From positions 57,051 to 121,050 of the IMG/VR virus record IMGVR_UViG_3300009702_000017: a stretch of 64,000 bases of DNA; one strand, given 5' to 3'. The stretch comes from a virus. Of this stretch, positions 962 to 63,952 are shown in pieces (within the stretch, counting starts at the first letter, position 1; every line of letters begins with the position of its first letter). Under the pieces are notes generated by a model that worked only from the letters and a program-made list of their open reading frames with translations, had not been told where the DNA came from and searched no databases. The position numbers and the translations under genes were made by a program.

Positions 962-3069
962 TAGTTCTCCTTTGGTAGATAGTTCCTACGAATTACCTTG
1001 CAAGCCTCTTTGAGCATCCGCTTGGAGTCATTTTCCCACCACTGCATGAAATCGTTCACGGTGACCTTGTGGTGAGCCAAGACCCTACGCTTCGACGTAG
1101 GTAACTGACGCTCGGACTTGGTAAGGGAGTCCAAGGCAAGATCGGCGCTTCTGGATAGATCCTGTTCTCCAGACATGTCCTGTTCGGGCGATGGCTGACC
1201 CGCTTCGCTTGCCTGTGTGCCTTCCTGGCCCTGGGCCTCGGCTGGGGCGTCACCACTGCCCGCTGCAGCTCCTGGGGCTCCCTGGGCGCCCTGCTGTTGC
1301 TGCATTTGAGCCTGCTGCTGCATTTGAGCCTGTTGCTGCATCTGCTGCCATTCGAACCAGAACGGGTCTCTAATGTAGGCAAGGGACTGATCTTGGGATG
1401 CCCCCTGGACCCCCAACAGCTTCTCCACGATGACACCTACCGGAACGTACTTGTCAATGACAGCTTGCCACTGTGGATTGAGAAGGAAATCGCCCCCAAG
1501 TTGCTGGTCAATCGGATCCTTCTCTACCGCCTCCAGCACCTTGTTCATCGTCATATGCAGCGGCATGTCTTGCTGCAACCGGATGGACTCCTTCTCTGCC
1601 GTCTCGGACTCTAGACCAAGAAGCTTCAAGGTGCAAATCTTCGACAAGTTCTTGTCGATGACAGGCATGATGTAGGTGTTGAGAAAGTCCTGCCACTGTG
1701 CAATTAGCGGCCTAATACCTACGTCTCTGGCTGCCTCCAACTTGTACTCGGCGTTAGATTCGGATAGAGCCTGATTGTTTGTACCGCGAGACAAGTGGGC
1801 GTAGCCAGGAAGCTCCTCTGGAGACATTTGGAACGCTGCCATGATAGTCCGCGCGTTTGTGTCCGACAAGAACTGGAACTCCATATCACGCTGACCTTGA
1901 TCAATCGGGGTCCAATTGATCCTGTCTTCTGGCCCGATACCAAATACGGGCATACGCCAGGAGTTGTCTACGCCATTGATGTTCGCATTGAACTCTTGCT
2001 GCACCTGAGATACAACCTGCTCATCTACCTCTTCCGACTGAATGATGAGCATTCCCCGGGTAGCGCGGCCAGACTGGAAGTACAGCTTGTTGTGGGTCGT
2101 AATGTTGATGTGGGTTGTAACGGCTGCTAGAATAGTATCAAGCGGAGTTACTGGATACCCATCTAACTCAATGTCGTTCACAGGATAGAAATTATGTACC
2201 ACACACTCTTCGTCTGTGAATGCCTGCTTCGGAGTTCCATCGATAACCTGAATCCAGGTGTACTCGTCATTCTCAAACCGCTCTGGCTCCAGCCTTTCGT
2301 TCTTGAAGCGCTCAAGTAGCTTCCGGGCTTGATCACGAATAGCTTGCTCAGCCTCCTGCTGCGGAGTGGCACGGTAGATGGTACCAGCGTCGATTGGACG
2401 GAAGCTGTGGAACTCACGCTCCCCATTACCATTCATCACGTAGATGAGTTCTGTCGCAATACGCCCAACTGTGATTGCGTTTTTGGTACTACGCAATAGG
2501 TACTGCGAAAACGTCATGCGATCTTCTGCATGATCATAGCCTTCTACTCGACCACAGCTATATAGGAGCTTCTCAGCCTTCTCAATACGATCCCGAAGAG
2601 CCTCTTTTTGCTCTTCATCCATCTTGTCCGTCGTACCTGGATTTGGTTCAATAACGTAACCAGTCGAGAAGCGATCGGGACGAGGACGACCAAAGGTTCC
2701 AACGTGATTGCCTCGTGCGTTTATAATGGCAGCGACAAGATCGTCCTGAATGGCAATGCGCTTCAGAACCCTATCTGGAATCATCCGCAGCTTGGCGCGG
2801 TAGACTGACTGGTACTCACCCGGATGGTTTGGATCCTTTTCAAAGGCCAAGCGCGTGATACTACGCTTACCACCTGGACCATTGAGGATATTCAATACAC
2901 TCTTGGCTAGAGAAGGATAGCCATCAGACGTTGCATCCTCCTCCGATTTCTCTAGAGACGCTTCCACGAACGGATCGATGAACGCGACCGAAACCCCCTT
3001 GGGGCGCTTAGATCCGATGGGATACATCTTGAGCGACAAGGGCTCTTCGTGGTGAATTGAGGAAGACAT
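961..3069 (-). CDS. Portal protein
   Basis: A 702-residue protein that should form the dodecameric DNA-entry ring at the capsid vertex. I chose the ATG that overlaps the upstream stop (TAATG) rather than a start 22 codons earlier inside the neighbouring gene. It lies between large terminase and the MuF head protein, the classic portal position, and its length is in the range of large myovirus portals. The body is alpha/beta with a NITTHNKLYFQSGR segment near residue 340. Residues about 575-600 are a Gln/Met/Ala-rich low-complexity stretch encoded by a short tandem repeat, followed by a Gly/Ala/Glu-rich linker and a basic C-terminus. The call rests on position and architecture. Confidence 0.8.
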   Translation of the reverse strand: MSSSIHHEEPLSLKMYPIGSKRPKGVSVAFIDPFVEASLEKSEEDATSDGYPSLAKSVLNILNGPGGKRSITRLAFEKDPNHPGEYQSVYRAKLRMIPDRVLKRIAIQDDLVAAIINARGNHVGTFGRPRPDRFSTGYVIEPNPGTTDKMDEEQKEALRDRIEKAEKLLYSCGRVEGYDHAEDRMTFSQYLLRSTKNAITVGRIATELIYVMNGNGEREFHSFRPIDAGTIYRATPQQEAEQAIRDQARKLLERFKNERLEPERFENDEYTWIQVIDGTPKQAFTDEECVVHNFYPVNDIELDGYPVTPLDTILAAVTTHINITTHNKLYFQSGRATRGMLIIQSEEVDEQVVSQVQQEFNANINGVDNSWRMPVFGIGPEDRINWTPIDQGQRDMEFQFLSDTNARTIMAAFQMSPEELPGYAHLSRGTNNQALSESNAEYKLEAARDVGIRPLIAQWQDFLNTYIMPVIDKNLSKICTLKLLGLESETAEKESIRLQQDMPLHMTMNKVLEAVEKDPIDQQLGGDFLLNPQWQAVIDKYVPVGVIVEKLLGVQGASQDQSLAYIRDPFWFEWQQMQQQAQMQQQAQMQQQQGAQGAPGAAAGSGDAPAEAQGQEGTQASEAGQPSPEQDMSGEQDLSRSADLALDSLTKSERQLPTSKRRVLAHHKVTVNDFMQWWENDSKRMLKEACKVIRRNYLPKEN
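1294..1344. repeat. 18-bp tandem repeat inside the portal gene
   Basis: Two full copies and one partial copy of an 18-bp unit (CTGYTGCTGCATTTGAGC on the plus strand) encode repeated Gln-Ala-Gln-Met-Gln-Gln units of the portal tail. The repeat keeps the reading frame, so copy number can change without frameshift. It probably arose by slippage in a flexible linker. Confidence 0.8.
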
Positions 3070-4052
3070 TACTCGGTAGAAATGACAGTGAGGTTTAGGG
3101 TCTGCGTACTCTTGTTCACCACTTCCATCGACCACGTTGGACCAATCTTGGTGAGATAGGCTACGCTAGCTGGGTCAGCTGCGGTACTAGGTGACAAACG
3201 CTGGTAATCTCCGGTGTCCCCATTCATACGTACAACGCACTCTTGGTCTGCCTCGATGTGAACGAATCGTTTGGAAGACGTATAGAACTGAAGCCCAGTC
3301 GCATCCGGCAAAATACCGGTCTCGGTCGCAAGCGGTGAGGTGCTTGCAAACTCGATCCACGTAGAAGTCACTCGCTGCAACTCGTAGGTCTTTTGGGTGC
3401 CAATGGCGAATCCAGCACTAATAGCAAGTTTGTCTCCTGGCTGTACACCATCGGCCGAAAAAGCGATCAGTTGTGCATCAGAGGTGAGCGTGACGCTTTC
3501 GGAAACACCAGTAAAGACTTCTCCTGCGAGGCGAGTTAGCTGAATTTGGGTAGTGGACTGAACCGCCATCACCTGCCAGAATCCCACATTGAGGAAGTTG
3601 AACGGCGAAGCCGAGTCTCCAGTTAGCTGACCCGGAATGAACAGCGTATCACCGGGCGCGACACCAGCAAACGACCCAACATCGATCTGCATAGTAACAC
3701 TACCATTGCTATTGACCGTAGTAGTAACGGTAGAGCCAGAAAGCGCCAGATTCCGATCTGTCCTAAATACCGGGTTCGTACCACTAGTCCAGGTAAGCCT
3801 ATAGATACCCCTGTTCGCCACATTCTCTTCAAGCGAGAACTGCGATGTAGCGTCTGTCAGAGTAGTACGCACACCATTGAAGATCGATAGCGTAGCAGAT
3901 GGATCAACCGCATATCCCCTAGACGTTGGGTTTTCAACAATCAATCCACTCTGCTCATGAGTCCAGTCTACAAACCTGCGCTGTGGATTGTCGTTAGCGG
4001 CAGAGTCACCGTAAGCGATGATTTTGATTAAGTGTCTGAAAACCGCATTCAT
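3069..4052 (-). CDS. Putative virion structural protein between terminase and portal
   Basis: A 327-residue protein. I start it at the ATG preceded by GGAGTAGGAG, seven codons inside the longest frame. It is rich in Thr, Ser, Gly and Val and is predicted mostly beta, with no membrane segment and no recognised catalytic motif. Its stop overlaps the portal start (TAATG). The sequence just upstream, after the large terminase stop, holds one of the AATCTAT motifs seen before virion genes. A decoration or head-fibre role is possible from composition and position, but the family is not recognised. Confidence 0.6.
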   Translation of the reverse strand: MNAVFRHLIKIIAYGDSAANDNPQRRFVDWTHEQSGLIVENPTSRGYAVDPSATLSIFNGVRTTLTDATSQFSLEENVANRGIYRLTWTSGTNPVFRTDRNLALSGSTVTTTVNSNGSVTMQIDVGSFAGVAPGDTLFIPGQLTGDSASPFNFLNVGFWQVMAVQSTTQIQLTRLAGEVFTGVSESVTLTSDAQLIAFSADGVQPGDKLAISAGFAIGTQKTYELQRVTSTWIEFASTSPLATETGILPDATGLQFYTSSKRFVHIEADQECVVRMNGDTGDYQRLSPSTAADPASVAYLTKIGPTWSMEVVNKSTQTLNLTVISTE

Positions 4053-4071
4053 TGGCGTACTCCTACTCCCC

Positions 4072-4078
4072 ATAGATT
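4072..4078 (-). promoter_or_regulatory. AATCTAT motif upstream of a virion gene
   Basis: The minus strand reads GTAATCTATGG about 20 bases upstream of the start at 4052. It is one of five such sites before virion genes, the others near 46018, 47088, 51289 and 63600. A candidate late promoter core; inference only. Confidence 0.35.
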
Positions 4079-6621: not shown

Positions 6622-6940
6622 ATCTCTCTACTTCCACTTCGTTCCCATCTACGAAAATCTCCACCATCCACTCATCTCCAAGCATCGAAACTACCGAATA
6701 CTGAAGCATCTTGAATCTCTGTGGTATGTCGTCTGGATACACTTTTTCTGGATCTGTCTCAAAACGAAACCGAATCGTGTATGCGGGACGGTCAATCTCA
6801 ACCGTGTACTTTGCGCCAGGGTAAGCAACAAGAGGCCAATGCTTCAACTGGACAATTTGCGCCTCATGGAGCATCCCCGTCTTTTCGGTCACCATGCTCC
6901 GAAGGCGTTTTAGCTTTAGCCAACCTTCGGAACTATTCAC
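6470..6940 (-). CDS. Hypothetical protein; 3' part overlaps terS
   Basis: Starts with GTG inside the stop of the upstream nuclease gene (GTGA). The first roughly 100 residues read as a compact alpha/beta protein of unknown family; the last 50 or so are low-complexity and overlap the terS HTH region in another frame by about 150 bases. Removing one base from the CCC run at 6644-6646 (GGG on the coding strand) would end the protein at 6628, just upstream of the terS start, with ...FVDGTKWK. So the true gene may be 6628-6940 and the overlap a one-base artefact or mutation. Confidence 0.55.
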   Translation of the reverse strand: MNSSEGWLKLKRLRSMVTEKTGMLHEAQIVQLKHWPLVAYPGAKYTVEIDRPAYTIRFRFETDPEKVYPDDIPQRFKMLQYSVVSMLGDEWMVEIFVDGNEVEVERYGPEPRREPASSDGSVDGEGENSPQGLRREGRVPPSNLVAGSTFFTVPQR

Positions 6941-7944
6941 ATCCCAATCCTCTCTGCCGCCATCTGCCTCAGTTCGTCAGTAGGCGTCCCATGCGGCGGG
7001 ACGAACGCCTGTACATAAGATTGGAACGCCTTATCAATCCCTTCCGATTCTCTGACCTTGATATCCTTCTTGTCCGTCTTGAAGGTACGCAGCTTAACAC
7101 CAGGGCGGCGATACTTTTTCGCAACCCCTTCAAGCCACGCCTCTGGACCCCTCAGGTCAACCCTCCACGTAGTCCGGTCATCGAGGGTGGGCAAGTCGTC
7201 GTCTGGGGTAAGTGTGACGCTCCTGATGGCCCTACAAACCGTATCCGTTGGGATGCCCTTGGGATTGAGGATAGCGGGAGCAGGAGCGTCTACTTCAACG
7301 AGCCATAGATGACGGTCTACGTCCGCGTCCATAGCAGACCTCCAACGGGGAGCACCAATGTACCAGACATTCCCAAACCGCTGTGGGGTATGGATATGGC
7401 CAGAAATGAACGTGGCATTCGGGAATAGCCTCGGATCCACACCATCCTTGGCATAGAACCCGTTCTCATACTTCGATCCGTCGAACGTCTGATGGCAGAA
7501 GTAGATGTTCCCAGGGCACGGATTCTCATGTTTCCTGACGGTATCTACGAACCCCTTCCTAGAGGCCATGTATGGCATGAAGACAGCACCGGGAATATCA
7601 TCAAATGCAGTGACCTTGTTCACCACATACACATTCCCTTCATTGAACATATCCATCGAAGTCTCTTGGATAGCGTTCGTGCCAGCTTGATCGTGATTCC
7701 CGACTAGTACGATCACTCGACCAAATTCACCTACTGTAGTCGAAAGATCACTAAACGCTTCACGCCAAAATTCCTGCACCCCTAGATGCAAGATGGAATG
7801 ATCGTTAGTCTGGTCCCCCATGAAGACTGGGGTAGCGTTATGCTCCTCCACGAGCTTCCTGATGTACTCGATAAGCGAACGACAGTCGTCCAGTTCGGAG
7901 TAGACTGCGTGTACATCTCCAATGAGCAGGAGCTTACTCGACAT
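6937..7944 (-). CDS. Metallophosphoesterase, Mre11/SbcD/gp47-like nuclease subunit
   Basis: A 335-residue calcineurin-fold protein with the full metal-ligand series: GDVHA (residues 9-13), MGDQTNDH, VGNHDQ, CHQTF and SGHIHTP. The start at 7944 overlaps the preceding small gene (ATGTCGAGTAA). The spacing and C-terminal cap match the nuclease subunit of Mre11-Rad50/SbcCD/T4 gp47-46 complexes, and the likely partner ATPase with a zinc hook is at 15370-17508. It should process DNA ends for recombination-dependent replication. It lies close to the sigma-like gene, as gp47 lies near gene 55 in T4-type phages. Confidence 0.85.
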   Translation of the reverse strand: MSSKLLLIGDVHAVYSELDDCRSLIEYIRKLVEEHNATPVFMGDQTNDHSILHLGVQEFWREAFSDLSTTVGEFGRVIVLVGNHDQAGTNAIQETSMDMFNEGNVYVVNKVTAFDDIPGAVFMPYMASRKGFVDTVRKHENPCPGNIYFCHQTFDGSKYENGFYAKDGVDPRLFPNATFISGHIHTPQRFGNVWYIGAPRWRSAMDADVDRHLWLVEVDAPAPAILNPKGIPTDTVCRAIRSVTLTPDDDLPTLDDRTTWRVDLRGPEAWLEGVAKKYRRPGVKLRTFKTDKKDIKVRESEGIDKAFQSYVQAFVPPHGTPTDELRQMAAERIGM

Positions 7945-8122
7945 CGTGCTGACCCCTAACAAAGAGCACGAAAGACTCTGGAATGATCAATACTTCACTT
8001 TTCTCGTCTCCGATGTCAATACTATAAACCTGTTGTCCATGGGGCTGATTCTTGATCACACCATCAACCCAAACAACATCCCCTTCAAAAATCGTCTTTC
8101 CGTTACCAAAGACCACACGCAA
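7934..8122 (-). CDS. Small hypothetical protein (possibly the 3' part of a stop-interrupted ORF)
   Basis: A 62-residue beta-rich protein if started at TTG 8122; no strong ribosome site is seen there. The frame is open upstream to an in-frame TAG at 8159-8161 and, beyond that, to the well-initiated 25-codon ORF 8159-8236. The sequence between TAG and TTG also reads like protein (GGWTPSYTAVPLR). Either the TTG is used, or the two parts form one protein of about 100 residues by readthrough or before a nonsense mutation. Function unknown. Confidence 0.5.
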   Translation of the reverse strand: MRVVFGNGKTIFEGDVVWVDGVIKNQPHGQQVYSIDIGDEKSEVLIIPESFVLFVRGQHDVE

Positions 8123-8135
8123 CGGGACTGCCGTG

Positions 8136-8171
8136 TACGAGGGTGTCCAACCACCCTTCTACACCCTCGTA
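8136..8171 (-). other. 10-bp perfect hairpin around an in-frame TAG codon
   Basis: TACGAGGGTG at 8136-8145 is exactly complementary to CACCCTCGTA at 8162-8171, with a 16-base loop. On the transcript the TAG stop is the first codon of the loop. There is no U-run after it, so it does not look like an intrinsic terminator. Confidence 0.6.
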
Positions 8172-8236
8172 TTAGCCCGCTTCTCTTGACTGAAAGGTTC
8201 TACCCCAAGCTTGTTGTTCCATGCGATTATACTCAT
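8159..8236 (-). CDS. 25-residue ORF ending at TAG, in frame with the downstream gene
   Basis: Starts with ATG after a strong TAGGAGACAGT ribosome site that overlaps the stop of the sigma-like gene. It encodes MSIIAWNNKLGVEP... for 25 codons to TAG at 8159. The downstream 62-residue ORF is in the same frame with no other stop between. A true short peptide, a readthrough leader, or the 5' part of a gene with a nonsense mutation are all possible. Confidence 0.5.
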   Translation of the reverse strand: MSIIAWNNKLGVEPFSQEKRANTRV

Positions 8237-8244
8237 ACTGTCTC

Positions 8245-9300
8245 CTATAACGCGATACCTCTCATTATCAGTACCTTCTGATGAATGATAGGTAGTTTTC
8301 TAACGGACTGCGCCAGCACATGCAGTACCTCTGCATTCTCTACAGCGCAGTCTGGTTGCCAATGATCGTCTGCTGCAATTACGTCAAAGAGAGTCGTAGC
8401 AGTACGCTCCTCATCTCCAGACTGGTTAGTCACCAATGTCTCACCACTAATGTAGCTCGCGGCACTAAGTAGATGTTGAATCTCACTTGCGTTCGTTTCC
8501 CCACCGTTCTTTGCACCTTCATTCACTCTAGCGGCCAAGTCCTCGAAATCTACCTCGTTCTTGTCATATCGTGATATGGCCTTGTGAGCACGATAGAGCT
8601 TGCGCTGGTCTGACGAAGAAAAGTGAACGAACGTCTTTGAGTAAGCGTTGATGAAGTTCCCTACCATGCGCCCAATAGCCACACCACGAAAAGCGGTTGT
8701 GTATGGCATCTCGTACTTATCGATGGCCGACAATAGCCCATCAATGGCGATCTGAACGAAATCCATGAAGGTAAGATGACTCTTGGATGTGCGGGACCAA
8801 AAGATACGTGCACGAGAAATGGCGAGTGGAGTGTTCATCTCTACGAGCGCATGACGAATAGCCTCAATCCTTCTTGCAAGCACTGTGATAGGAGACTTGG
8901 GAGCCCATTTCCTTGACTTCAACACCCATCCAATGAACATGTAGTTGACATGGAACTGGTAGAGCGCTTCAGCATCACGCTTCTTGAGCGCTTTGGAAAT
9001 CTCGGCAAAGAAGACGTTGTGACGCTCTCTGAAATATGGCCTAGCTGAAAGAACATTCCTGTTTTCTTCGGTGATGTATGTGACGAATTTACGGTACACG
9101 TTAGGGCCGTATCGATGTCGGATTAGTATGTCGCGCCATTTGTCCTCAAGCCACGTAAGCTCCTCTAGCTGGCTACGCTGGATAGATTCAGCGGACATGT
9201 CGTCTGCATAGTCTTCCTCGCAAGCCTCGATAGCAATCGCTAGAGAACCAGTGAACTTGCGGAAGTGTTCTTGGGAGTCAAATTGCTTATTTGGCGCCAT
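8245..9300 (-). CDS. Sigma-70-like transcription factor lacking region 4.2
   Basis: A 351-residue protein. I use the ATG at 9300, overlapping the helicase stop by 14 bases. Residues about 155-225 match sigma region 2: NTPLAISRARIFWSR, then LTFMDFVQIAIDGLLSAIDKYE, and IGRMVGNFINAYSKT, parallel to the region 2.1-2.4 pattern. Residues 280-310 resemble the acidic linker of region 3.2. The end, SVRKLPIIHQKVLIMRG, matches region 4.1, but the protein stops there, so the -35-binding helix-turn-helix is absent. It should direct host RNA polymerase to phage promoters recognised mainly by a -10-like element, as T4 gp55 does. Functional equivalence is inferred. Confidence 0.75.
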   Translation of the reverse strand: MAPNKQFDSQEHFRKFTGSLAIAIEACEEDYADDMSAESIQRSQLEELTWLEDKWRDILIRHRYGPNVYRKFVTYITEENRNVLSARPYFRERHNVFFAEISKALKKRDAEALYQFHVNYMFIGWVLKSRKWAPKSPITVLARRIEAIRHALVEMNTPLAISRARIFWSRTSKSHLTFMDFVQIAIDGLLSAIDKYEMPYTTAFRGVAIGRMVGNFINAYSKTFVHFSSSDQRKLYRAHKAISRYDKNEVDFEDLAARVNEGAKNGGETNASEIQHLLSAASYISGETLVTNQSGDEERTATTLFDVIAADDHWQPDCAVENAEVLHVLAQSVRKLPIIHQKVLIMRGIAL

Positions 9301-10768
9301 CTCGAATCTCAATGATAGGTGGACAAATACTATTGTAGTACGCTCGGCGCCTATTAGCGTGATCGTGCAATAGCTCAACGTTGGTAATATCAAAGTCAGT
9401 GAAGATGCAATTCTTCTTCCCCGGTACCCTTCTAGTACCTCTACCAATCACCTGTCGAATCTTCACCTCAGACGACTTCCCTTGGAGGTAGATAATGTGA
9501 TCTGCGTTCTTCACATCGGTACCAATACCAATGGCTTTGGTTCCGACTAGGATTGGAAAGCGCCCTTCATTAAAATCCGCTACAAGCTGGTGGTTGTTCG
9601 ACTTCTGGTACTTCTCTGGGAGACTAGAGTATCTATCCTTTTGGACTGCGCCATGAGCAAACCACGCCTCACGCTTTAAATACGGAAGCAGCACCATGAA
9701 CTGAAAAACTTCCTCGACCATAATCAAGACATGACGACCTCGGTCAACCGATTCGTTTGCAATCTGAGCGGCTATCTGGGAAATATCTGTGTTGTTGTAC
9801 AGGTGTACGCGGTTCAATCTGTTTACGTCTTCAGTCTTGTACTTGGAAGGAGAACGTACATTGACCATGCAAAAGCGAATGGGAGACAAATATCCGTCAC
9901 GAATCCCTTGGGCAACGTCCATCTCGTACACAATATCTCCAATAATGGCTTGGAGAAGCTTTTCCTTGCCATCATTGCGAATCTGTGTGCCAGATACAAA
10001 GAACCGATAAGGAGCATCCTTCATGAGGTTGAAGCACACATCTGTAAGTGTCTTTGCCGGTGTCATGTGAGACTCATCAGCACAAAACACCTGAGCACTG
10101 GACAGCCGCTTCCAGTGCTCACTGTTTGGGTCGGTTCTTGATAAGGACTTGTCGATAGCAATCACGAACTGCTTGTCTGATTGCTTCTTTCCATTGCCAT
10201 AGAGCCCAACCCTCTTCTTTCCAAGATGCTTGCTGAATTGTTCGTGTAACTGCAAGGCAATACTCTTGGAAGGAGCCATGATAACTGTCTTCAGACCCAG
10301 ACGCTTCACTAGCAACATCAGAATGAACGACTTTCCCCCTCCAGTCATCAACTCGATAGCGCCATGCTTCGCCTTTAGAAGTGCTTCTACGGCTTCGCTC
10401 TGATATGAACGGGGCTCAAAAGGAGGAGGTGTATCCCAAGGGACTGGGCTTGGCTCTGGATAGTCTACTTCATTCTTGATTTCAGTGAGAAGGATTTGCT
10501 GAATCTGTCTCGCCAGCCCGCTGTATGTCCAATATCCATCGTCATCATGAAAGAGCAAGTCGTTTTTCACCTTCTCCTTAAGCTCTCTAGCTTGCCTAAG
10601 GTACTCGTCTTTACCGTACTTGCGTGTAAACCAACCGCTTCCCTTGAGGAATTTTTGGTACTGATACGAAGCAGACTTGTCAGTGTAGCTGAGGTACCTC
10701 TTCAACAACGTAACTGTCTCTTTGCCACCATCAATCCTAGCGATTGTTGGTTCTGTGATCCTTATCAT
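9287..10768 (-). CDS. Superfamily 2 DNA helicase (UvsW-like)
   Basis: A 493-residue helicase. Motif I is MTGGGKS (141-147), motif II is ADESH (about 230), motif III is SGT, and motif VI is QVIGRGTRR (about 440). FEPRSYQSEAVEALL just upstream of motif I matches the Q-motif/lead-in of UvsW and RecG-like DEAD/H enzymes. The N-terminal 110 residues are a separate domain. In T4, UvsW unwinds R-loops and branched DNA to switch from origin- to recombination-driven replication. It overlaps the upstream kinase gene by 32 bases. Confidence 0.88.
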   Translation of the reverse strand: MIRITEPTIARIDGGKETVTLLKRYLSYTDKSASYQYQKFLKGSGWFTRKYGKDEYLRQARELKEKVKNDLLFHDDDGYWTYSGLARQIQQILLTEIKNEVDYPEPSPVPWDTPPPFEPRSYQSEAVEALLKAKHGAIELMTGGGKSFILMLLVKRLGLKTVIMAPSKSIALQLHEQFSKHLGKKRVGLYGNGKKQSDKQFVIAIDKSLSRTDPNSEHWKRLSSAQVFCADESHMTPAKTLTDVCFNLMKDAPYRFFVSGTQIRNDGKEKLLQAIIGDIVYEMDVAQGIRDGYLSPIRFCMVNVRSPSKYKTEDVNRLNRVHLYNNTDISQIAAQIANESVDRGRHVLIMVEEVFQFMVLLPYLKREAWFAHGAVQKDRYSSLPEKYQKSNNHQLVADFNEGRFPILVGTKAIGIGTDVKNADHIIYLQGKSSEVKIRQVIGRGTRRVPGKKNCIFTDFDITNVELLHDHANRRRAYYNSICPPIIEIRDGAK

Positions 10769-11363
10769 CTAGAATCCTATCTAGCACTTGCTGTGCTCTT
10801 TCATCACTTGTTCCCTCCAGCGCCACAAGCGGGACATCAGGAAGGTACCCCCAAACTAGGTCAGGAAGAAGACCGTCTACTTCAAGTGCTTGTTTGTAAT
10901 CGTGAACTCGATTTGGATCGTATACCTTTTCTTTTGGAAAGAGCGGACAGTAGAAGATTATGTCTGGCTTCCATGTTGGTGTAACTTTCAGAATGAAGTC
11001 GTATACATCCTTCCGTTCATCGGGATTCACATAGAGCATTGCATTGAGTGGACTGCTGTCTGAAATGACGAATGTCTTGTTGATGATCTTAAGGGCATCG
11101 TAAGCGAAGACGTCTTCTCTAGCAGATTGGTTGACGGCAATTTCCTGTTGATCTGTTAGCAATAGGTCTCCATTGAATGGAATAAATTTGGGATGATTTT
11201 CATTCCAAGTCAATCTTCCAATCTTACGTAGTCTTGCAATATGATACCTAGCTTCTTCTGGTACGAACTCAGCAACATGACCATTGTCCTTGAGGTTGGC
11301 AAAGACCTTAGCGGCTACTGTCGTCTTTCCAGATCCAGGCGCTCCTACGAAGTTGATTAGCAT
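10737..11363 (-). CDS. P-loop NTPase/kinase-like protein (NadR/Ttd14-type AAA)
   Basis: A 208-residue protein starting MLINFVGAPGSGKTT, with Walker A at residues 7-14, a YDALKIINKTFVISDSSPLN segment resembling a Walker B/lid region, and IIFYCPLFP further on. The layout resembles small AAA_28 (NadR/Ttd14) kinases often found in phages. The substrate is unknown. It is the first gene of the minus-strand operon, about 20 bases downstream of a CTCGCTGTA motif. Confidence 0.7.
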   Translation of the reverse strand: MLINFVGAPGSGKTTVAAKVFANLKDNGHVAEFVPEEARYHIARLRKIGRLTWNENHPKFIPFNGDLLLTDQQEIAVNQSAREDVFAYDALKIINKTFVISDSSPLNAMLYVNPDERKDVYDFILKVTPTWKPDIIFYCPLFPKEKVYDPNRVHDYKQALEVDGLLPDLVWGYLPDVPLVALEGTSDERAQQVLDRILDDKDHRTNNR

Positions 11364-11380: not shown

Positions 11381-11391
11381 GTTACAGCGAG
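11381..11391 (-). promoter_or_regulatory. CTCGCTGTA phage promoter-like motif (minus)
   Basis: CTCGCTGTAAC followed by TAGAGAG and the ATG at 11363. Shares CTCGCTGTA and a following TAGAG with sites at 11612 and 35523. Confidence 0.45.
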
Positions 11392-11632: not shown

Positions 11633-12256
11633 ATGGGAAACCCGAGATCGAAAGGCGGCAGACCGCCAGGAGCAGCCAGGGAAGGGGCTTACGAGCTACT
11701 AGAACTGCTGCTGCACAACAGCGACGACCAAGGCGCTTGCACCCTTACCTTGGAGCAGCTTTCGCACAAGCTCAATAGGTGTAAGCGCACACTCATCCGC
11801 TACATGCACATCCTCAAGGACGAGGGGCATGTTACCGTAAAGCGCTGGAATTACATGGTAGATGGCAAGTTCATAGGCAGATGGAAGGTGTTTCCAAGAG
11901 GTGCCAAGGCGATGTACGACTGGGCTCACTGGGCCGAGGTCCATAAGCAACCCATTGTGCCAAAGAAGACGTTCTCGGCACCCAAGGACAAGCTTCCTCC
12001 CGGCAGACCAAAGGGAGGGTTCAAGCAGAAGAAACTGGAACTCATGCTAATTCTGAAGATGGAATGCGGCCGAAAGGGATACACGAAAATCAGTTCGAAT
12101 GAGTTGACGCAACGAATGAAGCGATCGAAGTCAAGTGTGAGCAAGTATCTTCAGTGCCTACGCAATGAGGGGGTTGTCTCAGCAGTGTACAACCGATACA
12201 ACAATCGAGACTGGAGCGGTGTGTACACGGAACGAATCATCTATTGGCATAGGTAA
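11633..12256 (+). CDS. DNA-binding regulator with two AT-hook/winged-helix repeats
   Basis: A 207-residue protein built of two similar halves. Each begins with an AT-hook-like basic motif (GGRPPG near residue 9; PPGRPKGG near 121) followed by a winged-helix HTH: TLTLEQLSHKLNRCKRTL with an LKDEGHVTV wing in the first, and KISSNELTQRMKRSKSSV with LRNEGVVSAV in the second. The double layout suggests binding to two half-sites or bridging. It is the first gene of the plus operon, opposite the sigma-operon, and is a good candidate for controlling the early/middle switch. Role inferred. Confidence 0.75.
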   Translation: MGNPRSKGGRPPGAAREGAYELLELLLHNSDDQGACTLTLEQLSHKLNRCKRTLIRYMHILKDEGHVTVKRWNYMVDGKFIGRWKVFPRGAKAMYDWAHWAEVHKQPIVPKKTFSAPKDKLPPGRPKGGFKQKKLELMLILKMECGRKGYTKISSNELTQRMKRSKSSVSKYLQCLRNEGVVSAVYNRYNNRDWSGVYTERIIYWHR

Positions 12257-12259
12257 GAT

Positions 12260-14104
12260 ATGGCAGAATCATACGGCAAGGTGAAGTCAGTAGCTAAGAA
12301 CGTAACCGTCAAGGGACCCGACCTTGACTCGAAGGTACTTTCGACGATGAAGCGAACCGCTGACATCGTGGGTGCTACCTTGGGACCGGGTGGTAATCCT
12401 GTGCTCGTTGAGCGTCAGGAATACGGCCTTCCGTCCTACGTGACGAAGGACGGGGTGACTGTATTCCAGTCGCTTGGTTTCCTGGACCCTACGGAACACG
12501 CCATCATGGAGACGGCAAGGGACGCTAGCGTGCGTACCAACTCGGAGGCAGGTGACGGGACTACAACCGCTACTGTGTTGTCTGAGGCGATTGTTCGTCT
12601 CATGAACGAGTATACCAAGAAGCACCCTCGCGTCAGTCCACAGTTTGTCGTGCGGGAGCTAGAGCGGTGTTTTCGTGAGGACATTGATCCGACCATCAAG
12701 AGCCTGAGCTGTACTGCTTCTCGCGATAACGAAGAAGGTATCGGTTTCTTGCGTTCCGTTGCTCGAATCAGCACAAACGGAGACTCCCCTCTAGCGGATG
12801 CGGTGATCGATTGCTTCGAGATTTCTGGCGATCAAGGGAATGTGACCATTACCGAGACAAGCGGTCCATCGAGCTACGAAGTAGAGCATGTTGACGGCTA
12901 TAGTATCGGAACAGGATACGAGGAATCTTGCGGAAAGTGGTATGGAAAGTTCATTAACGATCCTGCAACACAGAGGTGCGTACTGGAGAAGCCGGTTGTG
13001 GTGCTCTATCACGGGCAGATCAACGATATTGGTACTGTCAGGCTGCTCATGGAAGCAGTTGGTGATGCGTGGCAGACTAGTCGTGGAGGCGAGGAAGGCG
13101 AGTTCAATGGTAACGTAATCCTGATGGCTACCGGATTTTCTGATGTGGTCTTGGGTATTTTTGCTACAAATTTCAACATCCCAAGCATGTTGAGTGTCTT
13201 TCCGTTGGTTGTTCCAAAGAGCCCAATGCTAGGCGGTCAATATGAGCTTCTTGCTGACATTTCCGCGCTTACTGGCGCGAGGATCTTCGATCCCATCAAT
13301 GACCACCCCGATAGCTTGCCTTACTTAGAGGCACAACGTCAAGGGCAACTGAAGGATCTGTTGCATGAATACCTTGGGCCTGGAATCGATAGGTTTGAGG
13401 CAGGTAGGTATCGTTCCAACGTACTTGGGATGGCTAATGAGGATGACGTTCTTGTCCGCATTGACGAGCTACAGGCTCAGATCGAGAACGCTGCGTCACG
13501 CCTTGACAAGATGCTGCTAGAAGAGCGTATGGCAAAGCTGTCGGGTGGAATCGCAAAGCTAGTAGTACGTGGTCCTAGCAACGGCGAACTCAAGGAAAAG
13601 CGCGATCGTGCAGAGGATGCTGTGTGCGCTGTTCGTGGAGCCATCTCTGATGGATTCCTACCGGGTGGTGGATGGACTCTTCTCTATCTGGCAGAGATGT
13701 TGGACAAGCGCGGTAGCGACATCCTCTCGGAAGTGCTCGTTCCGGCTCTCCGTTCCCCTGTAGAGCGATTGTACTCCAACGCCGGTCTCATTACCGAGGA
13801 AGATCGCGAAGAGGTGCTGAAGCCCATCCTGACGGCCATCAGGAACAACGCCAAGAAGCACAAGTATCTTGTGTACGACGTACTTGAGGGAAAGCACGTA
13901 GACGCTTACGAAAGTGGTCTGCTGGATAGTACCCCCGCTGTACTGGAGGCAATCCGTAACAGTCTATCGATTGCCTCTCTTCTCGGATGTCTGGGTGGTA
14001 CGATTGTGTACGCTCGCGATCTTGAGCTTGAAAGGCAAGAAGCCCTGGATAACAGCGAATGGCTTCGCAATGCTGGCGTAAATCCCGCAAACGAAAGACC
14101 CTAA
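12260..14104 (+). CDS. GroEL-like (group I) chaperonin
   Basis: A 614-residue phage chaperonin, longer than the usual 545 or so. Nucleotide-site motifs are present: TLGPGG, TKDGVTV, GDGTTTATVL, and the hydrolytic aspartate in the EDAVCAVRGAI segment, followed by FLPGGGWTLLY (cf. VVAGGG in GroEL). The Gly-Gly-Met C-terminal tail is absent; the end is a charged ...NAGVNPANERP. It starts three bases after the upstream stop. By analogy with Pseudomonas phage EL and related phage chaperonins it should fold virion or replication proteins; no co-chaperonin gene is visible here. Confidence 0.93.
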   Translation: MAESYGKVKSVAKNVTVKGPDLDSKVLSTMKRTADIVGATLGPGGNPVLVERQEYGLPSYVTKDGVTVFQSLGFLDPTEHAIMETARDASVRTNSEAGDGTTTATVLSEAIVRLMNEYTKKHPRVSPQFVVRELERCFREDIDPTIKSLSCTASRDNEEGIGFLRSVARISTNGDSPLADAVIDCFEISGDQGNVTITETSGPSSYEVEHVDGYSIGTGYEESCGKWYGKFINDPATQRCVLEKPVVVLYHGQINDIGTVRLLMEAVGDAWQTSRGGEEGEFNGNVILMATGFSDVVLGIFATNFNIPSMLSVFPLVVPKSPMLGGQYELLADISALTGARIFDPINDHPDSLPYLEAQRQGQLKDLLHEYLGPGIDRFEAGRYRSNVLGMANEDDVLVRIDELQAQIENAASRLDKMLLEERMAKLSGGIAKLVVRGPSNGELKEKRDRAEDAVCAVRGAISDGFLPGGGWTLLYLAEMLDKRGSDILSEVLVPALRSPVERLYSNAGLITEEDREEVLKPILTAIRNNAKKHKYLVYDVLEGKHVDAYESGLLDSTPAVLEAIRNSLSIASLLGCLGGTIVYARDLELERQEALDNSEWLRNAGVNPANERP

Positions 14105-15352: not shown

Positions 15353-15363
15353 CTCGCTGTATA
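15353..15363 (+). promoter_or_regulatory. CTCGCTGTATA phage promoter-like motif
   Basis: TTCTCGCTGTATACTTGG ends only a few bases before the ATG of the SbcC-like gene (15370), with no Shine-Dalgarno between, so the message may be nearly leaderless. Confidence 0.5.
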
Positions 15364-17759: not shown

Positions 17760-17770
17760 CTCGCTGTATA
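17760..17770 (+). promoter_or_regulatory. CTCGCTGTATA phage promoter-like motif
   Basis: CTCGCTGTATACCTAG begins just after the stop of the preceding gene, 28 bases before the ATG at 17798, which has its own CTGGAGATAA ribosome site. Shares the extended CTCGCTGTATACCTAG with the site at 35523. Confidence 0.5.
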
Positions 17771-28213: not shown

Positions 28214-28954
28214 ATGGCAAAGAAACCATTGGAAGCAATCATGAAGCGCATCAAGGATGCGAACGCAAACGCTAACATTGTACTGGAAGACATCCCGATC
28301 AAGGCACGTCCAGCATTCGAGATGCGCAAGCGCCAAGGAGAGGTTAAGGAGAAGGAAGCCACGAAGGAGTATGACGAGTACGCTAAGGGACACATAGGCG
28401 CTATCTTCTTGGATGGACGGCCAGAGAGTGTCGAAGATTTCTTGAGGCTAGCAAAGCAAGAAGGCAATACAGCAAATATTGATGTTCGTTCCTTTTATGA
28501 GACCATTTCGAATGGCATTTGGGAGTCTATTGACCGCAAGGATCACCTCTTCACACCAAATCAGCAGAGCATGCTCTTGAGCAATCTGCGGTCCATCATG
28601 TTCGAGTTACAGATTGATGCAATGCCCGGCGTACCTTTCGAGGGAAACATTGTTGTGCAGTCGCCAGAACACGCTGTATCTCATGTAAGAGAGATGGTAC
28701 GGAAGGCTATGGGAGATGACTTTGCACGAATCGCCATCCAAAAGGATGTCACGAAGCAATGTGTCGCTTCCGCTTATACTGGCGCAGTAGTACCGGTGGT
28801 CTTCTACAACTTTCTAGAAGATGAAGTCCCTGCTCTTTCAGAAGGGCTTCTGGGCGCGGTTACCTATCACGCGGAAGGTACCGTTGATGAGAACGAAGTC
28901 ATTCGAGTTTTCCGCGCACTCAATAACTCAATCCGCGATAACCTAAGCAAGTAG
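28214..28954 (+). CDS. Hypothetical protein of the replication operon
   Basis: A 246-residue protein nine bases after the polymerase stop with TTAGGAGACAAAT upstream. Residues 1-65 are basic and helical; the rest is alpha/beta with VPFEGNIVVQSPEHAV and a helix-rich C-terminus. Its place between polymerase and SSB suggests a replication role. I cannot assign it to a clamp, loader or other family. Confidence 0.65.
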   Translation: MAKKPLEAIMKRIKDANANANIVLEDIPIKARPAFEMRKRQGEVKEKEATKEYDEYAKGHIGAIFLDGRPESVEDFLRLAKQEGNTANIDVRSFYETISNGIWESIDRKDHLFTPNQQSMLLSNLRSIMFELQIDAMPGVPFEGNIVVQSPEHAVSHVREMVRKAMGDDFARIAIQKDVTKQCVASAYTGAVVPVVFYNFLEDEVPALSEGLLGAVTYHAEGTVDENEVIRVFRALNNSIRDNLSK

Positions 28955-28964
28955 AAAGGACGAT

Positions 28965-30134
28965 ATGTCAGGATTTGGAACACCAAACTATAACGACTCG
29001 GAGTATGAGAAGAACTTCAAGCCGCAGAGCGACAAGAATGGCGGTATCACTCATTCCGTCTTTCGCATTCTACCTCCAATGAAGAAGCAGGCCGCCAAGG
29101 GAATCTGGCACCTCTACATTCCACAGCACTTCGGGTACAGTGGAGTGAATTCATTTGATCCCAGCAAGACGATCGCTCGACCATTCCGGTGCCTTCGTGA
29201 GAAGAACTTCAAGACCGGTATGATTATTCGAGATTGCCCGGAGTGTATCGAGATTGATCGTCACAAGGAAGAACTAGAGGTCAAGTCCGAAGAGTATGAT
29301 GCCAAGATCGAGACTGGAGAGATGACTGAGGCAGACAAGGAGCTTCTGCTATCGCCTCTTCGCGAGTGGCTGAAGTCTCACAACTGGGACGGGAAGCACC
29401 GTCTTCAGGCCATGAACCGCGAGGGCGAGCTTGGCAAGCTATCGATTAGCAACCGTACCTTCAAAACCCTCAGACAGTCAATGGACGAGGTACGAAAAGA
29501 AGGCATCGATCCGTTGGCTCTAGACCAGGGTGTCTGGTTCGACATCGTTCGTACCGGACTTGGTTGGAGCGATGCCGATGTGGTGAAGGTCGAAACCGAA
29601 CAGCGGCGTTTCTCTGATGGAACCGTTGGGAAGGTCACCAAGCTGGCGCCCATCCCACAGGAAACCGCAGAGAAGGCACTGGCAATCCTTCGCGATTTGT
29701 CTGATTTTGTCATCGAGCTTGACGAAGACCATGTTCGTCAGTTGGTGGAGTCGGGTGGAGAGCCTTCTGTGGTAGATGCCATCTTCGATGACTTTATCAA
29801 GAAGGCGAATAAGGAGAAGTCACACGAAGCCTCTTCTGCACCCGCCCCGGCGGCCATTCCTCCACCACCTCCAGCCCCTGCTACTGTGAGCACTGCAGAG
29901 ACGGTGGCGGCCCCTACTTCAACAGGCCCGACGAGGGAAGAGATGCTGGCTAGGATCGAAGCTCTTCAGACACAGCTTGCGGGTACGGCTCCAAATCCGA
30001 CGCCTACGCCAGAGGTCCCGGCTGCACCCCCAGCGCCTCCAGCGCAGACGACCCCTCCTGCGGAGACCGCTTCGCAGCCCGATTTTACTGCGATGCTACC
30101 CGAGGAGTTGGAGAAGTTCTTCGAGGACAACTAG
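28965..30134 (+). CDS. Single-stranded DNA-binding protein (T4 gp32-like)
   Basis: A 389-residue protein with a gp32-like plan. Near the N-terminus FRILPP begins the OB-fold, a zinc-type CPEC motif (about 93-96) follows, then IDRHKEE and an alpha/beta region. A Pro/Ala/Thr-rich flexible linker leads to an acidic C-terminal tip, LPEELEKFFEDN, typical of SSBs that recruit partners. It sits before a possible UvsY-like gene and RecA/UvsX. N-terminal MSGFGTPNY recurs at the C-terminus of the next gene product. Homology to gp32 is inferred from architecture. Confidence 0.7.
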   Translation: MSGFGTPNYNDSEYEKNFKPQSDKNGGITHSVFRILPPMKKQAAKGIWHLYIPQHFGYSGVNSFDPSKTIARPFRCLREKNFKTGMIIRDCPECIEIDRHKEELEVKSEEYDAKIETGEMTEADKELLLSPLREWLKSHNWDGKHRLQAMNREGELGKLSISNRTFKTLRQSMDEVRKEGIDPLALDQGVWFDIVRTGLGWSDADVVKVETEQRRFSDGTVGKVTKLAPIPQETAEKALAILRDLSDFVIELDEDHVRQLVESGGEPSVVDAIFDDFIKKANKEKSHEASSAPAPAAIPPPPPAPATVSTAETVAAPTSTGPTREEMLARIEALQTQLAGTAPNPTPTPEVPAAPPAPPAQTTPPAETASQPDFTAMLPEELEKFFEDN

Positions 30135-35522: not shown

Positions 35523-35533
35523 CTCGCTGTATA
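35523..35533 (+). promoter_or_regulatory. CTCGCTGTATA phage promoter-like motif
   Basis: CTCGCTGTATACCTAGAGAG starts directly after the helicase stop and ends at the GGAG ribosome site of the protease gene (ATG 35551). It shares CTCGCTGTATACCTAG with the 17760 site. Confidence 0.5.
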
Positions 35534-35550: not shown

Positions 35551-36219
35551 ATGGACACACAAGAAGAAGTCGAGGAGCTAACCCTTATGGAGCAAATGGC
35601 ACCATTGGCCCAGCGAGCAGCAGGCACACTTGGCACTGGTTACGATTTCGACAACCGGATCTTATACGTTGTAGGAGACGTTGACGAAGCCATGTTCATG
35701 CGTGTGCTGGTTGGTCTGAATGCCCTTGAGGAAGAGGAGGGGCCAATTACGGTGATGCTTCATAGTGGAGGGGGAGAAGAACTTCCAGGGTATGGTATCT
35801 ACGATGCGTTTCGGATGTTTCCATACCCTGTCGTCATTCAAGGTTTTGGCATTGTTGGATCGATGGCATCCATTATCTTGCAGGCTGCTGACTATCGTGT
35901 GCTGACCAAGGAGTGTCAATTCCTGGTCCACAATGGAAGCATGACCTTTGGGGGGGTCACTGATGGGATGTTTGTGTTGCCTTCCGAAAAGGCCATTTCA
36001 GTGGGTGCGGATGTAAAGAGGTCGGTAAATCGATACACCACAATCCTAGCTCGTCATACTCACCTTACTTTGAGTGAGGTACAAGAGATTTGTGGAAAGG
36101 ACGAGTTCTTGTCTGCCCGCCAAGCCCTTAAGCTAGGGTTCATTGACAAGATCGCACCGACACGCAAGAAGTTCGAGATCGCTAAGAAGCGCAAGAAGAC
36201 CAAGAAGAAGGAGAAGTAA
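35551..36219 (+). CDS. ClpP-like serine protease (peptidase S14)
   Basis: A 222-residue protease. MLHSGGGEELPGY matches the ClpP substrate-loop start, GIVGSMASII carries the nucleophilic Ser, FLVHNGS the His, and GKDEFLSARQALKLGFID the Asp-containing segment (cf. RDRFLSAPEAVEYGLVD in ClpP). The C-terminus is a lysine-rich tail (KKRKKTKKKEK) absent from normal ClpP, suggesting nucleic-acid or partner binding. No ClpX-like ATPase is in the window. It may process virion proteins or hijack host proteolysis; which is unknown. Confidence 0.85.
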   Translation: MDTQEEVEELTLMEQMAPLAQRAAGTLGTGYDFDNRILYVVGDVDEAMFMRVLVGLNALEEEEGPITVMLHSGGGEELPGYGIYDAFRMFPYPVVIQGFGIVGSMASIILQAADYRVLTKECQFLVHNGSMTFGGVTDGMFVLPSEKAISVGADVKRSVNRYTTILARHTHLTLSEVQEICGKDEFLSARQALKLGFIDKIAPTRKKFEIAKKRKKTKKKEK

Positions 36220-44925: not shown

Positions 44926-45249
44926 GCTTGAGAGTAAGTGTGAGGGACTGGAACAAAGACTCAAGGTTGAACAGGAGGTCTCAAAGGAGCTTGCCGATGC
45001 CTTGGCAGGAATGTGTGATGTTGTGAATGAGTTCTGTTCGGACTCCCATACCATCATTCTAGATGAGACAGAAAAAGCTCTAGATGCTTACGACAACATC
45101 CAAGAGAAGCAAGGTGCAAAGCCGTAGACAAATACACGGGGCATCAATGCCAGAGGGATCCAAAGCATTCCGATCTAAATGGCCAGAAATCGAATTGGCA
45201 CATGTACACCGATCCCGTGACTGCCATTACCAATGCTTGGAAGAGCTAA
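44885..45249 (+). CDS. Coiled-coil protein, possibly extended by a frame change
   Basis: ATG 44885 gives 80 residues of coiled coil (ERIRELESKCEGLEQRLKVE) to TAG at 45127. Adding one A to AAA at 45119-45121 would continue to KAVDKYTGHQCQRDPKHSDL... and end at TAA 45249, which interlocks with the stop of the convergent minus gene (45246). The extension reads like real protein. So the true gene is either 44885-45127 or 44885-45249. Confidence 0.5.
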
Positions 45250-46001
45250 TTGTTGGCGATGATATACCACTGCGTTCCATCAGACTGCACAGTCACGTAC
45301 TTGTACTGAGTGGATAGTACAAATGTATTGGCACCATCGATGAGTTCACCAGCTTGTGCAGTCACAGTCACGGCATTGGCACTTGCGTCGGTCTTTTTGA
45401 TGCGATATTCGCGTCCAGTGACTCCAGCAGCTGCTGGAAGCGTTGTAGCGAATGTGCCGGCGGTAGCATCTGCAAGTACGGTGTGATGGGCGTCCCCAAG
45501 AGTAGTTGCTGCGGTAATCTTCGCAACTGCACCCTCGATACCAGCTGCGGTCTTCACAACACCGGTGATGCTAGCTTCAAGAGCGACAATATTCCAGTTG
45601 ACCATGATACCACAAGTACCGGCACCAGTTTGAGTGATACCAGCACCATCCCATGCATCAACAGCAATGTAACTGTCATGTGCGGTGTGATCATCTAGAT
45701 AAATGAACGTTTCCCAGTCGGAGTTGGTGAGGTAAAAATTCTTGCCAGCATTATTGTGATAGTCATTCCCCAAAAACCATTTTGGGCTACCGGCACGGAT
45801 ACTCTCAAAAGTGATCCAGTTAGCGTCTTTTGTTCCACTAGTGTTCTGTAGTGTGATGTTGGCTTTCTTCCCGTTGGTGATGTAACTCCCACCTAAAATA
45901 TCACCTAGCCCAAAGCTGAGGGGCTTATATCCTAGTTGGTATGTAACCTTGGCTAGAATTTCGTTTAAAGTCTGTTGGTCTCTTTCGTTTTCGATTGCCA
46001 T
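45246..46001 (-). CDS. Putative tail fibre/receptor-binding protein
   Basis: A 251-residue beta-rich protein and the last gene of the minus operon. The C-terminus (TTLPAAAGVTGREYRIKK, later VQSDGTQWYIIANN) matches the common C-terminal fold of phage tail fibres, a repeat of Thr/Ala/Gly strands ending in a WYI-type motif. It could contact the host surface. The AATCTA motif and AGGAGCAC lie upstream. Specific receptor unknown. Confidence 0.65.
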   Translation of the reverse strand: MAIENERDQQTLNEILAKVTYQLGYKPLSFGLGDILGGSYITNGKKANITLQNTSGTKDANWITFESIRAGSPKWFLGNDYHNNAGKNFYLTNSDWETFIYLDDHTAHDSYIAVDAWDGAGITQTGAGTCGIMVNWNIVALEASITGVVKTAAGIEGAVAKITAATTLGDAHHTVLADATAGTFATTLPAAAGVTGREYRIKKTDASANAVTVTAQAGELIDGANTFVLSTQYKYVTVQSDGTQWYIIANN

Positions 46002-46017
46002 AGCGTGCTCCTGTAGA

Positions 46018-46024
46018 TTAGATT
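46018..46024 (-). promoter_or_regulatory. AATCTAA motif upstream of a virion gene
   Basis: Minus strand reads AACAATCTAATCTACAGGAGCAC just upstream of the start at 46001. One of five virion-gene motifs. Confidence 0.35.
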
Positions 46025-46453: not shown

Positions 46454-47071
46454 CTAGGCGCTATACGGTGTGAACTGAAGGTCTCCTGTGGCGCCAGCAG
46501 AGCGGCCAGCTACAGAGGTCGAGGCAGCCACGTGAATGTACTTTGTCTGACCAAGAGCAATGCGCATCCCACCGGTAGCAACGGTGGTAGCAAAGTCAAA
46601 ATAGACATCCTCGTTGAAGCAAGCCACCTCGTAGTCACCAGCGGGAAGAGTAGTAGTCGTAGAACCATTGGCAGCGCAGCTTGAAAGCGTGACAACGCTG
46701 CCAGGAACATAGACGAGTCCAGTAGGTGAGGTAGTCGTAGACATGCTTCCTGCGCCCGTAGCAGCAGCAGCATTTGATTCGGGCTGTCGGTTGATTACCT
46801 GGGCTGGCTGAGTAATCATCGCCCCGTCTGCGACTAGGTAAGCGCTCATGTCGCTGTTGCCAGTTCCAGGACTGGAAGCTAGTCGAAGACCAAGCTTGCC
46901 ACCAGTTGTACTGGTAATGACTACAGCAGCGCTACCCGCAGCTGAACTGTAGATGTTAGCGGTAGCCCCAACAAAGAAGTCGTTGGTGTTTGCTAGTCCG
47001 ACGAGGCCGGTAGCAGTACCATCAACGGTGAGTGGGGCGGACTTCTTGGCAATCGAAAGGGATGCTGACAT
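46454..47071 (-). CDS. Hypothetical virion protein
   Basis: A 205-residue Ala/Thr/Ser/Gly-rich protein, beta-predicted, with no membrane segment. Starts after ACAGGAGTCACT, below an AATCTAT motif. Contains TTTTLPAGDYEVACFNEDVY and ends ATGDLQFTPYSA. Probably a fibre or decoration component. Confidence 0.5.
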   Translation of the reverse strand: MSASLSIAKKSAPLTVDGTATGLVGLANTNDFFVGATANIYSSAAGSAAVVITSTTGGKLGLRLASSPGTGNSDMSAYLVADGAMITQPAQVINRQPESNAAAATGAGSMSTTTSPTGLVYVPGSVVTLSSCAANGSTTTTLPAGDYEVACFNEDVYFDFATTVATGGMRIALGQTKYIHVAASTSVAGRSAGATGDLQFTPYSA

Positions 47072-47087: not shown

Positions 47088-47094
47088 ATAGATT
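47088..47094 (-). promoter_or_regulatory. AATCTAT motif upstream of a virion gene
   Basis: Minus strand reads TAATAATCTATAGAGACAGGAG directly after the lipoprotein gene stop and before the start at 47071. Confidence 0.35.
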
Positions 47095-47937: not shown

Positions 47938-47948
47938 TATACAGCGAG
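47938..47948 (-). promoter_or_regulatory. CTCGCTGTATA phage promoter-like motif (minus)
   Basis: CTCGCTGTATATAGGCC then ATG 47931. A site inside the lysis/virion operon, giving the small lysis-group genes a possible separate promoter. Confidence 0.45.
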
Positions 47949-51288: not shown

Positions 51289-51295
51289 ATAGATT
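51289..51295 (-). promoter_or_regulatory. AATCTAT motif upstream of a virion gene
   Basis: Minus strand reads TAGCCACAATCTATTATCG then AGGAGCACT. The 14-mer TAGCCACAATCTAT is identical to the site at 63600 before the baseplate gene. Confidence 0.4.
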
Positions 51296-63599: not shown

Positions 63600-63606
63600 A
63601 TAGATT
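63600..63606 (-). promoter_or_regulatory. AATCTAT motif upstream of the baseplate gene
   Basis: Minus strand reads TAGCCACAATCTATGAGGC, ending just before the ATG at 63594; TAGCCACAATCTAT is identical to the 51289 site. Confidence 0.4.
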
Positions 63607-63623: not shown

Positions 63624-63634
63624 CTCGCTGTATA
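63624..63634 (+). promoter_or_regulatory. CTCGCTGTATA phage promoter-like motif
   Basis: TTTCTCGCTGTATATAATG; the ATG of the 37-codon ORF (63637) is two bases after the motif. It points away from the divergent baseplate gene. Confidence 0.5.
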
Positions 63635-63636
63635 TA

Positions 63637-63750
63637 ATGTATGCGAGTGCAACCACCTCTACTAGCCAGTTGGTGGATCCCTATCCCAGCTTCGTCATCG
63701 TGGCGATTCCTTCTGTCTGGGCGTGGGCTTGTCCTGAGGAACAAAAATGA
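63637..63750 (+). CDS. Small hypothetical protein
   Basis: A 37-residue ORF, MYASATTSTSQLVD..., with a hydrophobic SFVIVAIPSVWAWAC segment. Its TGA overlaps the next ATG (ATGA) and TGAGGAAC serves that gene. A possible tiny membrane or leader peptide; a second ATG at 63641 opens another frame, so certainty is limited. Confidence 0.45.
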   Translation: MYASATTSTSQLVDPYPSFVIVAIPSVWAWACPEEQK

Positions 63751-63944: not shown

Positions 63945-63952
63945 AAAATACC

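Follow-up and report, generated by a model that had tools for sequence, protein, structure and literature searches.

A sigma70-family protein that ends before region 4.2 is the probable late sigma factor of a family of almost uncultured bacterial viruses

The gene at 8245..9300 on the minus strand of the window, i.e. the whole 64,000-nucleotide stretch of the virus record IMGVR_UViG_3300009702_000017 analysed here, most probably encodes the late sigma factor of a phage family, which would read AATCT(T/A) as a -10 element together with the host core RNA polymerase and without a -35 reader (we put the probability of this reading at roughly 0.77). As the protein ends short of its -35-reading part, and as AATCT is found without a -35, late transcription in this phage family probably runs on a -10 signal alone.

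The open reading frame starts with the ATG at 9300, stops with the TAG at 8247-8245 and specifies 351 amino acids, with a C-terminus (..KLPIIHQKVLIMRGIAL) that corresponds to the end of region 4.1. Its match to the Pfam domain Sigma70_r2 (residues 152-221, E=0.0015) lies under the Pfam cut-off; PHROG_351 ‘RNA polymerase sigma factor’ (2e-5) and the NCBIfam profiles WhiG (5e-13) and SigBFG (1e-11), both over residues 146-347, also match. A profile built from 46 family members aligns with RpoD chains (3.5e-11) and remains co-linear from region 2.1 via regions 3 and 3.2 to RpoD ‘..KVLRMRFGI’, the end of 4.1. Along the minus strand, region 2, which serves core binding and -10 reading, occupies codons 152-221 (8638..8847; Pfam stretch and RpoD profile), followed by the region 3 helices with the conserved T-x-x-HFYP-x-DKRK-x-YRAN (codons 222-284, 8449..8637; RpoD profile, model and family alignment), a disordered linker matching region 3.2, the sigma finger (codons 285-310, 8371..8448; pLDDT <50 at 284-309 and RpoD alignment), and two region 4.1 helices (codons 316-351, 8248..8355; model and family alignment), with the end of the chain three residues past Gly348.

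The AlphaFold2 model of the protein (mean pLDDT 87) contains the sigma2 and sigma3 helices, a disordered linker at about 285-310 and two last helices at 316-334 and 338-346, and a Foldseek search with this model led to the sigma family again. The comparison of structures that the original prediction had called for aligns residues 11-351 of the model with residues ~95-566 of E. coli sigma70 (Z about 11, rmsd about 11 Å over about 290 residues, a high value that is expected if the domains are placed differently) and reveals no complete region 4. The prediction of a sigma-70-like protein with readable regions 2 and 4.1 that ends before region 4.2 is thus borne out by the profiles, the RpoD alignment, the model and, as detailed below, the shared end of its relatives. 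Judged by sequence and model, the anatomy is that of sigma70 minus only region 4.2 and the tail, i.e. a natural sigma70-delta4.2: region 2, a co-linear region 3 with its 3.2 linker and the 4.1 helices are present, and the helix–turn–helix of region 4.2 is absent.

Could such an end simply reflect a nonsense mutation, a frameshift, a recoded TAG or an assembly error? The gene in the window does end at a TAG, and the next ORF also has an in-frame TAG, yet the same end recurs far beyond this one record. In phage records the single cultured relative is Myxococcus phage Mx1, and two further members used as queries gave only Mx1 too; its orthologue WNM70309.1 (OR576727.2), a ‘putative RNA polymerase sigma factor’ that the announcement of the Mx1 genome does not discuss (PMC10720576), is 41.6% identical to the window protein and truncated in the same way. 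Both phages have the gene order helicase, sigma, small ORF, phosphoesterase, two small ORFs and terL in common. Scans of viral contigs gave no match with a single protein as query, three with a two-sequence alignment and 98 with a five-sequence alignment, 80 of which were kept; bacterial genome contigs gave no match to the sigma family. With members that are ~34-48% identical to the window protein, these about a hundred contigs, the largest of about 165-182 kb, outline a family of ~170-kb bacterial viruses that is almost uncultured, to which an uncultured Caudovirales phage protein, the best viral match (38% identical), presumably belongs as well.

Ends were compared in the 81 members with a 3' end inside the contig—the window, Mx1 and 79 metagenomic contigs, which reduce to 47 representatives at 75% identity. 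All 81 stop directly past the same helix, L(P)xxxxKvLrLKGxxx, and TGA, TAA and TAG are all in use at this position; in the 46-member alignment most members have three residues past the invariant Gly348, with a range of 1 to 20. At 30 loci the sigma stop codon and the start of the following gene overlap, which leaves no room for region 4.2, and no close relative with an intact region 4.2 was seen among the family members. Within the window, none of the three frames past the stop continues into region 4.2, which excludes a frameshift there. Recoding of TAG, suggested by the sigma stop together with the TAG in the next ORF, was likewise rejected: TAG is an ordinary stop and indeed the commonest one in this genome (45 of 101 ORFs), and treating it as a sense codon hardly raises the coding coverage. 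An artefact is therefore a practically negligible explanation, and the same end in all members, the three different stop codons and the ordinary use of TAG make the truncation a conserved trait of the family.

The region that should face the -10 element has its own signature. Throughout the family, region 2.3/2.4 keeps F-R-S-V-x-I-G-R-M-x-G-N-x-I-E, including I209, G210, R211 and G214, and the Trp-Trp pair of sigma70 region 2.3 is absent; our claim is restricted to the loss of this pair, as the pairing with sigma70 W433, W434, Q437 and T440 is ambiguous by about three positions. Without the Trp pair, a -10 sequence different from that of sigma70 is to be expected.

A search for motifs upstream of genes of the window phage yielded two patterns, ttttCTCGCTGTa..t..aGTagg and cAATCTAT, the latter near structural genes. 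In the window as a whole AATCTAT is not enriched (9 copies versus 6.2 expected). Candidate late -10 elements on the minus strand are AATCTAT at 63600..63606, exactly 12 nt upstream of the baseplate J-like gene 56947-63594, at 51289..51295, 22 nt upstream of gene 49027-51273, at 47088..47094, 23 nt upstream of the tailspike-like gene 46454-47071, and at 4072..4078, between terL and the structural gene 3069-4073, as well as a double AATCTAATCTAC at 46013..46024, upstream of gene 45246-46001. In Mx1, AATCT precedes the sheath, portal, baseplate, tailspike and other genes; on the same strand it occurs upstream of 22 of the 74 plus-strand (late) genes, versus 6 of 74 on the opposite strand, and upstream of 5 of the 129 minus-strand genes.

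To assess conservation, the baseplate J-like gene was compared with its counterparts in a set of 22 phage records. All 22 orthologues have AATCT on the coding strand within 75 nt upstream, and one has it on the opposite strand; given a background of 7.3% per 75-nt stretch, this corresponds to P about 1e-25, and among all 1024 5-mers AATCT ranks first. These upstream sequences have almost no other 12-mers in common, show no strongly conserved column outside AATCTT, and contain a -35-like word at the right distance from AATCT in two of the 22 cases. Sheath orthologues carry AATCT in 12 of 27 distinct upstream sequences (14 of 29 rows), with those lacking it mostly sitting close behind the preceding gene, and in the control, i.e. 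upstream of DNA polymerase III alpha genes, it appears in 2 of 26. By these sequence comparisons, AATCT(T/A) is the only family-wide late motif of the two that had been proposed.

Some repeats were also noticed. TGCC(A/G)ATCTG occurs in 40 copies within one ORF (record contig 1, ~28250-29350; window coordinates -28797 to -27697) and recurs at both ends of the record, e.g. at 63681-63959 of the window; head and tail of the record have a 66-bp inverted stretch in common (98%), which may be an assembly fold-back. Genome-wide, Mx1 (OR576727.2) contains GCGGATCT/AGATCCGC 31 times versus 3.4 expected.

The position of AATCT relative to start codons is informative as to its function. The motif might be a processing site, a terminator or a translation element of late mRNAs rather than a promoter, as it lies near start codons and the transcription start is deduced from the spacing. 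The spacing was determined for 77 sites upstream of late-strand Mx1 genes, genes of the window record (whose start codons are predictions) and the baseplate and sheath orthologues. Counted from the first A of AATCT to the start codon, it extends up to about 65 nt and has a sharp lower limit of 12 nt: a shorter distance occurs once among the 77, at an uncertain TTG start call, and exactly 12 nt is found at nine sites, eight of them independent (P about 8e-6). In one orthologous pair, a baseplate gene located at Mx1 121405 and at window coordinate -48891, the spacing is exactly 12 nt on both sides. An apparent exception outside the set of 77, gene 3069-4073, disappears once its start is set by the Mx1 orthologue, and the true start is probably near 4052. 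Such a variable spacing with a hard lower limit is more readily explained by a transcription start than by a translational signal at a fixed distance, and AATCT is strand-specific and concentrated at late genes; a non-promoter element is therefore improbable. With AATCT as a promoter signal, transcription of late genes would begin 12 nt beyond the first A of the motif. Read as the -10 hexamer, at -12 to -7, AATCTN would place +1 of the genes with a 12-nt spacing on the A of their ATG, and these genes would have leaderless mRNAs.

The second pattern appears to belong to a different promoter class. CTCGCTGTATA has five exact sites in the window, at 15353..15363, 17760..17770, 35523..35533 (28 nt upstream of gene 35551-36219) and 63624..63634 on the plus strand and at 47938..47948 on the minus strand, and allowing one mismatch gives seven sites versus 0.94 expected. 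A degenerate copy, CTCGCTGTAAC (11381..11391, minus strand), lies 28 nt upstream of the kinase gene 10737-11363, the first gene of the sigma operon, and further sites of this class are located at 11612 and 20755. At many sites an AGTA(T/G) box follows three bases downstream, which resembles the early -10 box of Mx1. CTCGCTGTATA itself is absent from Mx1 and was for this reason discarded as the family's late motif. Given this absence and the AGTA(T/G) box, it probably represents an early or middle promoter class other than the target of the phage sigma. Thus, of the suggestion that both motifs are promoters without a -35, the part concerning AATCT stands and CTCGCTGTATA, a real motif in the window, drops out as a late promoter of the family. 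In Mx1, the minus-strand genes, taken as early, carry TTGAC-N17-TAgtaT; in its general form, TTGA-N18..20-TANNNT, this promoter is present upstream of 31 of the 129 minus-strand genes, never on the opposite strand and at none of the 74 plus-strand genes. Recovery of this early -35 indicates that the same method finds a -35 where one exists.

The sigma gene is preceded by a helicase gene (9287..10768, minus strand), in the same order as in Mx1, and followed by an ORF (7934..8236, minus strand) with a Shine–Dalgarno-like AGGAGA before its ATG at 8236. A small gene is coupled to the 3' end of sigma in 77 of the 80 loci with downstream sequence, often via an ATGA-type overlap. The original prediction was right about a normal sigma stop and about the ribosome site of the next ORF, but in the window an in-frame TAG (8161-8159) breaks this ORF after 25 codons. 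The relatives have it intact, and the interrupted copy could be a pseudogene, a consensus error or a case of restart. Nearby, as also predicted, lies an Mre11/gp47-like gene (6937..7962, minus strand), an Mre11/SbcD-like phosphoesterase (PHROG_100 SbcD-like, 4e-19) whose likely start is the ATG at 7944. On the plus strand at 11633-12256, divergent beside the sigma operon and ahead of the GroEL gene, a protein with two winged-helix-like DNA-binding segments, recognized by eye, is a candidate regulator.

In Bacillus subtilis, SigO–RsoA is a two-protein sigma factor with region 4 on one partner. By analogy with this pair or with T4 gp33, a separate protein might replace region 4, so that the phage protein would be the late sigma but never act alone. 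Such an arrangement has precedent, since gp33 attaches to the beta flap in the manner of sigma4 (PMC2988020), and the 4.1 helices kept in the phage protein preserve part of the core contact. However, Sigma70_r4 is not found above cut-off in the window record, Mx1 or 37 relatives (39 records, many of them fragments; the weak matches are short stretches), nor is Sigma70_r4_2 in the first two, although a diverged region 4 could be missed by a domain search. Late promoters also have no conserved -35, and the product of the only gene that is coupled to sigma folds like Cpn10: sequence profiles by themselves gave no hint of this relation, but nearly all top rows of the structure searches are Cpn10, including T4 gp31 (VIA Z 5 to 7, Foldseek E from 0.011). 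The coupled ORF was accordingly dismissed as a sigma4 substitute. With its modelled Cpn10/GroES fold and a GroEL gene in 15 of 15 records searched (12260-14104, plus strand, in the window), it is most likely a co-chaperonin. A split sigma is thus unlikely, though it deserves to be kept in mind. The GroEL gene and the Cpn10-fold gene beside sigma amount to a full chaperonin pair carried by these phages.

For the late sigma that we favour, the following sequence of events can be envisaged. The protein would be made before the late genes, the promoter upstream of its operon being devoid of the late motif as read from the DNA, and would bind the host core RNA polymerase via regions 2, 3 and 3.2, as its anatomy suggests. 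In sequence and model the -35 reader is absent, and the 4.1 helices would be placed in the RNA exit channel. The altered region 2.3/2.4 would then recognize AATCT(T/A) at about -12 to -7 of structural genes, and transcription would sometimes begin on the A of the ATG. The core enzyme would be that of the host: multisubunit RNA polymerase was not found in 15 records, and a search for single-subunit RNA polymerase gave no match there, but none in control genomes either. The stabilization normally due to region 4.2 might not be needed, as is the case with sigma70-delta4.2 at extended -10 promoters, or be supplied by a phage or host factor, as by T4 gp33 and the clamp.

Recognition of AATCT by the phage sigma itself is an interpretation of the sequences, and the motif could instead be read by another phage regulator. 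Several phage proteins inhibit host RNA polymerase, and the protein could be a decoy of this kind, which binds the core and blocks host transcription while a different phage activator reads AATCT. The loss of the Trp pair would agree with such a role. Yet the family shows strong conservation of regions 2 and 3, the -10-facing helix among them, a conservation for which a decoy would have no use, and it is accompanied by a conserved -10-like late motif, which makes a decoy quite improbable. More specific than the late sigma reading as such, and possible but with somewhat less than even odds, is the version in which the protein, complete but for 4.2, reads AATCT(T/A) alone without a sigma4 substitute and often initiates at the A of the start codon ATG, producing leaderless late mRNAs.

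The closest counterpart is a laboratory construct. According to a passage in PMC2613000, which cites Kumar et al. 1993, E. coli sigma70 deprived of region 4.2 remains active at an extended -10 promoter. Region 4.2 counters early pausing and anchors promoters, and sigma70 lacking it (residues 1-553) shows early pausing and is inactive at a -35/-10 promoter (PMC7948647), which makes a compensating factor plausible in the phage. Laboratory sigma70-delta4.2 and the phage protein both keep regions 2, 3, 3.2 and the first 4.1 helix and have no -35 reader; in contrast to the former, the phage truncation is natural, family-wide and ends a little later (at the equivalent of 566), and its changed -10 region goes with AATCT(T/A).

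The likeness to T4 gp55 put forward in the original prediction holds for the missing -35 reader and the -10-like late box but not for the build. As in the gp55/gp33/gp45 system of T4, a sigma-family phage protein would serve late genes with a -10-like box without -35, together with the host core polymerase, and the co-chaperonin gp31 that T4 also brings along has a parallel in the Cpn10-fold gene of this phage family. gp55, however, has a sigma2-equivalent domain only (about residues 42-122), and gp33, which binds the beta flap as a sigma4 mimic, has no recognizable homology with sigma (PMC2988020). The phage protein, with its 351 amino acids, comprises regions 1.2, 2, 3, 3.2 and 4.1, its late box AATCT(T/A) is other than that of T4, a beta-type clamp (DNA_pol3_beta_3) was not found in 15 records, and no gp33 candidate emerged; a host clamp could serve late transcription. 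With SigO–RsoA the phage sigma would have in common that sigma activity does not reside in one complete chain, the difference being that no region 4 was found in trans in the 39 records.

Neither the sigma truncation nor the AATCT late promoters were found described in the open-licence papers searched. The phage sigma is a natural counterpart of the classic laboratory truncation, and a whole family without region 4.2 means either that the core polymerase can be brought to function in its absence or that another factor takes its place. A direct test is possible, as Mx1 is available in culture and grows on a laboratory model, Myxococcus xanthus, and for dozens of uncultured phages the AATCT rule indicates where late promoters should lie. 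If sigma alone indeed reads AATCT, these phages would represent a further -35-independent solution beside T4 gp55/gp33/gp45 and the extended -10 promoters.
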